From Antennarius striatus (lineage: Eukaryota; Chordata; Actinopteri; Lophiiformes; Antennariidae), in NCBI RefSeq assembly GCF_040054535.1, contig NC_090796.1:7230001-7294000 (forward strand): 64,000 nucleotides of DNA, read 5' to 3'. The position numbers were made by a program, and so were the translations under genes. The first letter of the stretch is position 1. Every line of letters starts with the position of its first letter. This document shows, in pieces, positions 37,424 to 61,611 of this stretch. Under the pieces are notes generated by a model. That model did no database searches. It was not told the DNA's origin and was given only the letters and a program-made list of their open reading frames with translations.

Positions 37424-39189
37424 AGGAGAATCAAAGGGACAAGGAAGTCTGGATTTAGTCGGACCTGGCCTTCTCAGAGGGAATAAGATGGCTCGGTTCC
37501 CCAAACATGTGTTTAGCTCCTTGTGTCTTTGCTTACATAGAAGCTCTGGCGCATCAGAATCTCATCTGAAAGAACTCTGCGGATTTAAGCAGCGCCGACG
37601 GCTTCCTGTCGGATCACGCTTACATCCGTTTTGTCCTTTCAGAATAATGGAAATGAAGTGAATTTGTTAAAGCCTTGGGGAATGTGAGGGTGGGGATCTG
37701 GGGACGATTGAGAAGAAAGAGGGATGATTTCAAGAAAAACAGTTGATGTTATTTGTCTCAGACATTTCAAAATATACACTACTTGAATGTGATTATACAA
37801 AGAGATTGCCGTAGATTTAACTCTATATGAGAAGGAGGTCCTGCACTGCATTCTTTCCCCTATACACTAAGATTCCTGCTGCCTTGATTAAATTTTACTT
37901 TAAAGTAAAAACCTTTGGATGCTAATTTCTCCTTTGTCACTGTTAGTCTTGTCGGCTGTAGTTGGACTGTTTTGTTTACACGTCATCTGACTCGATTGAG
38001 GCGTCGCCAAATCTCAGTCAACGGTCATCCCATTGCAGTCAATCACAAACACCACAAATTAATTTCCTTTTTAATTGTGTTTGAAGCTGTATTATTATCA
38101 TGCAGTTCTGTAGAAAACGGTTTGACGTTTAGCTGACTCAATGTTTTTTAGCAGTTGCTTGGATAATAATTGTCTACAATCAACAAGCATATAAAACAGA
38201 TTGATATAAAACAGGCAAATGTCCTGTTAAGTGTTTTAACGCTGTCTCGAGTAAACCACTGCTTTCTTTTTGTGTGTTATGTGAACGTATACAGTATTAT
38301 GAGTGACTCGGGTATGTGAAGGTGCAGTGCAGCATGTGTTGTGCTAAATCATTCTCAGCATAGAACATTTCAAATGTCTCAGTGTGTGATGTTCATGTTG
38401 CAATGATGGTTTGTAAGCATTTGATTTTGACTCCAGCTGTAGGAGCATTTTATAAATTAGCACTCTAAAAGTTTGCAGACGATTTTGTCGACTTGTACAA
38501 TGTGACCGTTAGAAGTAGCTGTTCAGAGACTGCATTTCATTTTAAATTCATTAATGATCAAAACTGCCCCGGTGAGCCAATATAAATCTGGATTTGATCA
38601 GTGTTTCTCAGGCTCGGTGGAAGAGCATGCTTAGATTTACTCTATTAAATGTGATTTCTTTCTTTACTTAGCAAGATGCTAATTTTTTAAAGCAAATAAA
38701 CTCATCGGAAATTCTGTGTTAGAATTCATTTATCTCTTAAATGAAGATACTACTACACACGTGAACTATTAATTATACAACCAAATATTAATTTATAGCA
38801 GGGAAACATTATGATGATGGTGTTCATATTGGAGCCATTGCTGAGATTGGCTGTTAACTCGGACACCTCTGTTCTACCTGACATCCAACCTGGTAAACAA
38901 CTTCAATAAACCACTGATTCATTGCTGATTATCTGTTTGACAATTAACCATTATACCATGAGATACTTTTTGGAACATTATTGGCTCATACAACAGATTT
39001 TTAAAATAAAATTTTATTGAGCAAGCTAAAGTAAATTACATTTAGATTTGATAATATTGTTTACTGTCATTCATTCATTTTCTCAATGCTGTTCTACTTA
39101 TGATTATTGTCCTTTATTATTTTTTTGTCACCAGCTCTTGTGCCTTGAAGGTTAAATGGAGGAGGTCAGTATTTAAATGCAGGACCTTT
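37424..39189 (+). other. rac1 3' UTR and convergent gap to crym-like copy 1
   Basis: The rac1 stop and the crym-like copy 1 stop face each other across 1.77 kb. AATAAA occurs at 38695-38700 and 38905-38910 for rac1. On the other strand, TTTATT (AATAAA in crym direction) at 39113-39118 is 72-77 bases past the crym stop. The segments 38291-38314 and 38748-39165 recur, diverged, at the start of each later array unit, so this is the left source or boundary of the tandem duplication. Confidence 0.7.
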
Positions 39190-60200: not shown

Positions 60201-61611
60201 TTCGATTTAGATGAAACGGCTCCGTGGCGCAAAAAAGGTTGGGGACCACTGGATTAGCCTACCTGGGCTACAGGGGGTTTTGCGCACTCAGTGGTCATTT
60301 ATGCCTGTCATGATGGTACGTCATCTAATTGCTTTTTTACTACAGTATTTTAATTCATAGGAACTATGTTGAGCAAAAAAAAAAAAAGTAAAGTGGTCCG
60401 ACGAATATGTGCAACGTGAATTTACATTTTTTCATTTATTTTAACATTTATTTAACCAGGCAAGCAATTAAGAACAGGTTCTTATTTACAAATGCAGCCT
60501 GAACAAAGAGCAGTGGCCCTTAGATGTGTGGGGGTGGGGAGGAAGGCTGAAATAAACAGTTATACATTATACAGAAAATATGAAGAAAAATAAATACAAT
60601 ACAAAAGAGAACGAGAGAGAGAGAGACTCAACAAGTGCAACTGTCAACTACAGTTTCATGCAGGTTTTGTTTAAAAGCAGTGAGTGATTATGGGGACAAT
60701 GAGTTTGAGGGTGTTTTGAAAAGTGTTCCAATCATTAGCTGCAGCAAATCGAAAAGCACTGCGAGCAAATTTACATGTACTTGTATAACGGAATGTGATG
60801 GGAGTCAGCGTTCTGCATGATTTGCAATGTCAAGTTCTCGCACTGAACCAGAAAAAGGAACACTTCCTTAAGCTGCATGGAAAACAAAAGAAACAGACTA
60901 TGCTGTGAAAATGGCATTAGAGTAGCACTTGCCAAGGTGAAGCCACGCATTTCTGAACTGGTCTCTCAGAGACAACAGCAGAAGTCACACTGATTTGTAG
61001 GTAAGTCATTTCAAGTAAGTTCATGCACTGTGTTGGTTTTGTTAGTTGAAAAAGGTGACATTCATGCGCAATTGATTAAATACACCAGTAAAACATATAC
61101 TTGTCTTAAATTTGAAAAAAAAATTTTTTTAATAAGAACAGCTCGGTGAGTGAGCATATGAAACCGGCATGGTTTGGTACTTCCAACAAGGTCAAGAGCC
61201 ACTGGTCTACTCACCGCCTTTGCGTTGCCGGTCTCTGGATCGAGCAACACCACTGTGGAGTTCGTCCTTGGTAAATCCGAGCCCTCCTCCCTCCTGTAGA
61301 AGGACAGCAGCTTTGTGCACAGGACTCCATCTTTCTCCATGTATGCAGGCATCAGACCAAAGAAGCTGTAAACGTTCATGACAAGCAGCAGCAGATTGTT
61401 CAGGTTTATGCCAAATAAACAGTCACGCATTGAACAGAGCACCACAGACGCACCCGTTGTGTTTCTTCAGCGGCACCACGCAGCGCACAGGTTGGACCAG
61501 CTCTGCGCTGTCCCGTCTGGAGAAGATCCCCATTGCTTTTTCTAAAGCGGGCACCAAGTCTCTGTAATGCAACAGACTCTTAATCTCCTTTTCCCAAATT
61601 AAGGCAGTCAT
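57232..61611 (-). CDS. mu-crystallin / ketimine reductase-like protein, array copy 4 (diverged 5' exons)
   Basis: Eight exons join in phase: 61454-61611, 61215-61365, 58336-58398, 58142-58243, 57836-58019, 57593-57714, 57422-57506, 57232-57305, giving 312 aa. Exons 3-8 are almost identical to copies 1-3, with [16 protein letters not shown] and the ANQP end intact. Exons 1 and 2 differ clearly: the start is [14 protein letters not shown], three residues shorter, and exon 2 reads [28 protein letters not shown]. Intron 2 is about 2.8 kb and holds a Tx1/L1-like LINE tail, an hAT-like element and another repeat. All splice sites remain consensus. It neighbours the intact snu13, so it probably sits at the ancestral location. 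Confidence 0.9.
59345..59360 (+). promoter_or_regulatory. CTCF-like motif in crym-like copy 4 intron 2
   Basis: CCACTAGGGGGCAGTG is a close match to the CTCF core consensus. It lies exactly where unit 4 stops resembling the other units and the TE-rich insert begins. It may instead be part of an interspersed element that carries this motif. Confidence 0.45.
59432..59850 (-). mobile_element. Tx1/L1-like LINE 3' fragment
   Basis: The minus strand encodes [20 protein letters not shown] followed by [19 protein letters not shown]. This resembles the C-terminal end of Tx1/L1-type reverse transcriptases, which share the xxKxxIHKC...KP...FL pattern. An AT-rich TTTTATTTTATTTT stretch at 59432-59460 is the inverse of the A-rich tail. 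Only the last approximately 90 residues remain. Confidence 0.6.
59860..60251. mobile_element. hAT-like non-autonomous DNA transposon
   Basis: It is bounded by the imperfect 13-bp terminal inverted repeats CAGCGGTCCCCAA and TTGGGGACCACTG (12 of 13 paired). The interior contains GGCTCCGTGGCGCAAAAAAGG near the right end, as in fish hAT/Charlie-type elements. There is no coding capacity. The flanking eight bases (CCCTAGAT and GATTAGCC) do not form a clear target duplication, so the ends may be eroded. Confidence 0.7.
60424..60850. repeat. Interspersed repeat remnant
   Basis: It starts TTTATTTTAACATTTATTTAACCAGGCAAG... and continues AAGAACAGGTTCTTATTTAC, a motif (TTTATTTAACCAGG...TTCTTATTTACAA) that recurs widely in fish genomes. 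No ORF of note. Class undetermined. Confidence 0.45.

Follow-up and report, generated by a model that had tools for sequence, protein, structure and literature searches.

Four crym genes and their snu13 neighbours

The window analysed here, a stretch of 64,000 nucleotides from Antennarius striatus without a single N base, carries four crym genes arranged head to tail on the minus strand. The gene models were built by hand on this strand, exon by exon, and each copy was then mapped by exon BLAST. Copy A (41790-39190, 315 aa) has its exons at 41790-41624, 41535-41385, 40356-40294, 40201-40100, 39977-39794, 39672-39551, 39464-39380 and 39263-39190; copy B (47591-44986, 315 aa) at 47591-47425, 47336-47186, 46161-46099, 46006-45905, 45773-45590, 45468-45347, 45260-45176 and 45059-44986; copy C (54045-50786, 315 aa) at 54045-53879, 53790-53640, 51961-51899, 51806-51705, 51573-51390, 51268-51147, 51060-50976 and 50859-50786; and copy D (61611-57232, 312 aa) at 61611-61454, 61365-61215, 58398-58336, 58243-58142, 58019-57836, 57714-57593, 57506-57422 and 57305-57232. 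Each copy thus has eight exons, the lengths of which are equal across copies apart from a 9-bp shorter exon 1 in D. The 28 introns all have GT-AG borders, internal stops are absent, and an AATAAA motif lies within 160 bp of the stop in every copy. These models bear out the four complete eight-exon genes described in the first-pass annotation, whose list of copy-specific codons (4, 10, 108, 115, 222 and 242) is also right among A-C. When the direction of change is taken from the majority state among the four copies, the private replacements are E10G in A, P4Q, R115N and A222V in B, and M108I and A242V in C; B and C differ from A at four and three residues, respectively, and in D a further 14 codons depart from A-C, every one of them within exons 1-2. 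Note that intron 2 varies in length: in unit C it has 648 bp that A and B lack and contains a direct repeat (52022-52249 / 52670-52898), and in D it exceeds the intron of C by ~1.1 kb and those of A and B by ~1.8 kb, with a stretch (59330-61200) that does not align to the other copies.

The Pfam profile OCD_Mu_crystall (PF02423) covers almost the whole of copies A and D (E 2e-88 and 296.8 bits for A, E 1.5e-86 and 290.7 bits for D, with a cut-off of 24 bits); the whole-protein profile scan covered A and D, and copies B and C were placed by their near-identity to A. Among solved structures, the best relatives of A, matched over nearly the full length by phmmer, are 4bv8 (E 1.7e-117, 395.2 bits) and 2i99 (E 1.4e-115, 389 bits), the next best match reaching 188 bits, and D scores 388.4 and 384 bits against the same two chains and 182 bits against the next. 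We take 4bv8 to be mouse CRYM and 2i99, listed as Mu-crystallin homolog, to be the human protein. The assignment to CRYM is based on the Pfam results for A and D and on these structures, the next best match being ~200 bits lower; vertebrate CRYM chains, and not bacterial or archaeal enzymes, are the closest to both copies, and the locus differs from these known relatives by its four tandem copies. The NADPH-binding glycine motif reads GAGIQA in all four translations and GAGVQA in 4bv8 and 2i99, and the motifs QPVR, TKL, RTAA, RPDWREL and AELGEV are found in all four translations and in both CRYM chains; the glycine motif and the Arg, Lys, Asp and Glu taken to form the CRYM pocket are thus conserved in all four copies. 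CRYM is both a thyroid-hormone-binding protein and a ketimine reductase, and each copy, as far as its sequence can tell, may be expressed and could in principle yield a working ketimine reductase / thyroid-hormone-binding mu-crystallin.

The repeated unit consists of snu13 and crym, both on the minus strand, and units A-C are head to tail and 98.5-98.8% identical. The only intact snu13 found is the one beside crym D, directly upstream of it (63812-63065, 128 aa, exons 63812-63810, 63635-63515 and 63327-63065). The first-pass annotation had described snu13 as a dead passenger of the crym genes, and units A (42060..44169), B (47861..49971) and C (54316..56415) do hold snu13 pseudogenes, all on the minus strand. 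In all three, the start codon is lost, a TAA interrupts exon 2, exon 3 contains a 4-bp insertion and ends early at the identical base (3′ truncation), and a LINE reverse-transcriptase piece lies inside (Pfam RVT_1, obtained with the piece from unit A). A search of the genome with the snu13 exon-3 protein gave five matches, namely the intact exon (100% identity), the three pseudogene pieces in the array, each interrupted by a single TAA, and, on a different contig, a stretch with 37% identity. Since the lesions are common to units A-C, snu13 died once, probably in a founder unit before amplification, and repeated independent death was rejected because the lesions are identical in all three pseudogenes. 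Elsewhere in the window, the stretch 16076-16901 is 93-94% identical to the LINE piece in each pseudogene.

As to the extent of the array, the range 38291-61611 given by the first-pass annotation is sound for the crym genes, but the duplicated unit extends to the right, past the intact snu13, to an edge near 64038, just beyond the window. The left edge, near 38290, is placed by a 20-bp exact match alone, and no unit match was found between about 38310 and 38748. The search for other crym loci covered the 548,383,777 bases of the genome in 42 contigs. The Pfam family search gave seven exon matches, all inside the window (all 24 candidates scored), and the protein search, with all 33 candidates scored, gave 33 exon matches; the eight exons of the four copies account for 32 of these, and the last is a weak, isolated match on a different contig (E 0.11). 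Neither search found a second crym locus in the 548-Mb genome, and a remote one was rejected. With intron 2 of copy A as DNA query (40 of 145 candidates scored), full-length matches were confined to A, B and C, while C and D gave partial ones; among the matches listed, those outside the array fall within query bases 404-558, a short stretch with copies on many contigs.

Mosaic structure of the array

Site patterns were counted on an alignment of the four units, over the parts that align; much of the snu13-to-crym stretch of D has no alignment to A-C (LINE insert and deletion) and is left out of the counts. Sites that set A, B and C against D amount to 62/391 in the snu13 5′ region, 25/535 from the promoter to exon 2 and 58/741 in the aligned part of intron 2, then fall to 1/72 in the last stretch of this intron and to 2/1167 over exons 3-8, introns included; the pattern becomes B, C and D against A (46/424) in the 3′ flank. 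Thus, upstream of exon 3, D mostly shows 7-9% divergence from A-C, whereas exons 3-8 are ~99% identical across all four copies, the homogenised block of D lying at 57209..58470. On the other side, the 3′ flank of copy A (38748..39180) is ~11% different from the flank common to B, C and D, and is the old outer edge of the array. A run of 194 bp (61360..61553), which runs from late in exon 1 through intron 1 into the very start of exon 2, is identical between D and B inside the 7-9% diverged region, and is likely a small conversion tract. The similarity between units therefore switches along their length with sharp boundaries, as in a concerted tandem array. Because B and C combine an A-type left part with a D-type right flank, unequal crossing-over between two older units is indicated, and the mosaic as a whole is what unequal crossing-over combined with gene conversion leaves behind. 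Of the aligned parts, the snu13 5′ region has diverged most (80-82% identity), which suggests that the first duplication was old.

Substitution patterns among the copies

Among A-C, coding and noncoding DNA have changed at about the same rate (10/948 vs 46/4040 sites, odds ratio 0.93, P 1.0), in a count with two exclusions: alignment columns 1-200, owing to a poorly aligned A/T run, and the 3′ flank past column 7757, in which A has the old type of sequence. When the first 200 columns are kept, pairwise divergence is 0.63-0.74% in coding and 0.82-1.01% in noncoding DNA, and coding DNA appears slightly slower. The ten coding changes comprise seven replacements and three silent changes, where neutrality predicts a replacement fraction of 0.71-0.76. 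In NG86 estimates, dN/dS are 0.0069/0.0091 for A-B, 0.0042/0.0136 for A-C and 0.0083/0.0045 for B-C, dN being lower than dS in two of the three pairs and the order reversed in B-C. Exons 1-2 of D differ from A-C by 11 replacements, one of which (codon 5) hinges on gap placement, and four silent changes. Pooled, the 18 replacements and seven silent changes (18/25) reject an omega of 0.1 (P <1e-6), give P 0.002-0.014 for 0.3 and P 0.06-0.17 for 0.5, and fit an omega of 1, assuming a single omega for A-C and exons 1-2 of D. The dN/dS comparison that the first-pass annotation had suggested thus does not give values clearly below 1 in every copy, the replacement:silent ratio being near neutral and the power low.

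The intact frames were also set against a neutral expectation. No coding indel is found among A-C when 2.6 are expected (P 0.08), and without selection all three copies would be intact with P ~0.06, rising to 0.15 with one of them constrained, taking 80% of indels as frame-shifting (73% are so in the noncoding DNA). Exons 1-2 of D would have stayed in frame with P 0.003 if both lineages were neutral and 0.06 if only one was, in a calculation that includes long indels in introns, takes no account of the 194-bp converted run and so overstates the argument for constraint. The missing coding indels, the open frame of D, the two pairs with dN below dS and the slightly slower coding DNA with all columns kept hint at some constraint, and weak purifying selection on the copies is possible, with small counts and a history erased by gene conversion; if a single copy performs the function, at least one lineage should in any case show some constraint. 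Intactness as a sign of selection was set aside, given the neutral expectation (P about 0.06). Indeed, as A-C are ~1% apart and exons 3-8 were recently homogenised, there has been little time for decay, and the pattern among A-C demonstrates neither preservation by selection nor loss of function.

Origin of the array and rival explanations

Our favoured explanation, which we consider probable, is a mosaic origin with young copies. A snu13-crym segment would have been duplicated in tandem some time ago, and the snu13 copy of the outer unit would then have been destroyed, once. The two crym units would later have recombined through gene conversion over exons 3-8 and unequal crossing-over, leaving the hybrid middle units B and C (A-type 5′ / D-type 3′) and hence four crym genes; such recombinants would produce the observed succession of ABC-vs-D and BCD-vs-A patterns. 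The extra copies would be young and have evolved so far at about the neutral rate, and the simplest reading of this age and rate is that the added dosage is at least tolerated, without being shown to be selected. The first-pass annotation had reasoned that the preservation of every crym copy while snu13 died suggests that extra dosage is tolerated or favoured. As stated, this inference fails, since snu13 died only once and the crym copies are ~1% diverged, intact by chance with P 0.06-0.15 and near neutral in their replacement:silent ratio; of its two terms, 'tolerated' fits our results.

Selection for more mu-crystallin dosage, for NADPH-dependent thyroid-hormone buffering or ketimine reduction, could have kept the four copies, which we consider unlikely. 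Such selection would agree with the four intact frames, splice sites and nearby AATAAA motifs, with the missing coding indels among A-C, and with a stretch of about 70 bp in the promoter region over which the alignment shows no difference between A, B and D. However, the coding rate and the replacement:silent ratio are those expected near neutrality, copies this similar could be intact by chance, the contrast with snu13 amounts to a single event, and over the 127 bases compared immediately upstream of the ATG, D departs from A-C at 10-12 sites, a match no closer than in intron 2. The homology between D and A-C stops after about 130 bp upstream of the ATG, and the distance from the last snu13-like match to the crym promoter match is 133 bp in A-C vs about 1.4 kb in D (41934-42067 and 61745-63182, respectively), so that the distal promoter regions are not alike and regulation may differ between D and A-C. 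We also regard as rather improbable that the species was selected for a higher or split mu-crystallin function, with the N-terminal half of D diverging and A-C providing dosage from a shortened promoter.

Still less probable is a shift of function in copy D through its N-terminal half, under relaxed or positive selection with some changes at conserved sites. Exon 2 of D has 11 differences in 151 bp (7.3% vs 7.8% in the neighbouring noncoding DNA), eight of which are replacements, and by L58F and V76L (numbering of A) D leaves residues that A-C and both CRYM chains keep; however, dN does not exceed dS in exons 1-2 (0.048-0.053 vs 0.058-0.074), relaxed constraint explains the pattern equally, and the Pfam and phmmer scores of D drop only slightly from those of A. 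It is very improbable that the extra units are an assembly artefact, for instance two haplotypes laid end to end. The ~1% divergence between copies is a level that alleles can reach in some fishes and would suit an artefact, but the window has no N, the units carry indels of their own (the largest being the 648 bp in C), the switches of similarity along the units are unlike a simple haplotype duplication, and other contigs hold no further crym copies.

Multigene arrays are known to undergo concerted evolution by unequal crossing-over and gene conversion. Under the favoured mosaic origin, the crym array is a new example of this kind, a young tandem array under concerted evolution, which resembles such arrays in its homogenised block, hybrid middle units and diverged outer edges and differs from them in having only four units. 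On a small scale, it clearly illustrates that tandem genes can stay intact and similar through crossing-over and conversion, a caution against taking open frames alone for selection. A natural four-copy array may also offer a way to study extra crym dosage, although a use of the extra copies lacks firm support. In human, CRYM is described as the orthologue of the marsupial mu-crystallin gene, and the passages on it in that account of human crystallin genes mention no duplicates (PMC3554465). Many recent tandem duplicates have been reported in teleosts, above all in zebrafish, and, as far as that report describes them (PMC3464592), they are likewise young and of low divergence; unlike them, the crym/snu13 unit has a traceable mosaic of crossing-over and conversion. 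In the consulted part of an eel study, crym is named once, as abundant in larval transcripts. Among the titles and abstract openings listed from the open-licence literature, a scope that mostly leaves aside subscription papers, none dealt with crym duplication in fish.

Two other genes were noticed in the window. Cytohesin-like exons were recognised by eye on the minus strand at 2673-3184, where Pfam gave no match on a 63-residue piece. A small GTPase of the rac family has exons on the plus strand at 35597-37420, not far from the array's left edge; one 44-residue piece of these matches Pfam Ras, the rac family being assigned by eye.
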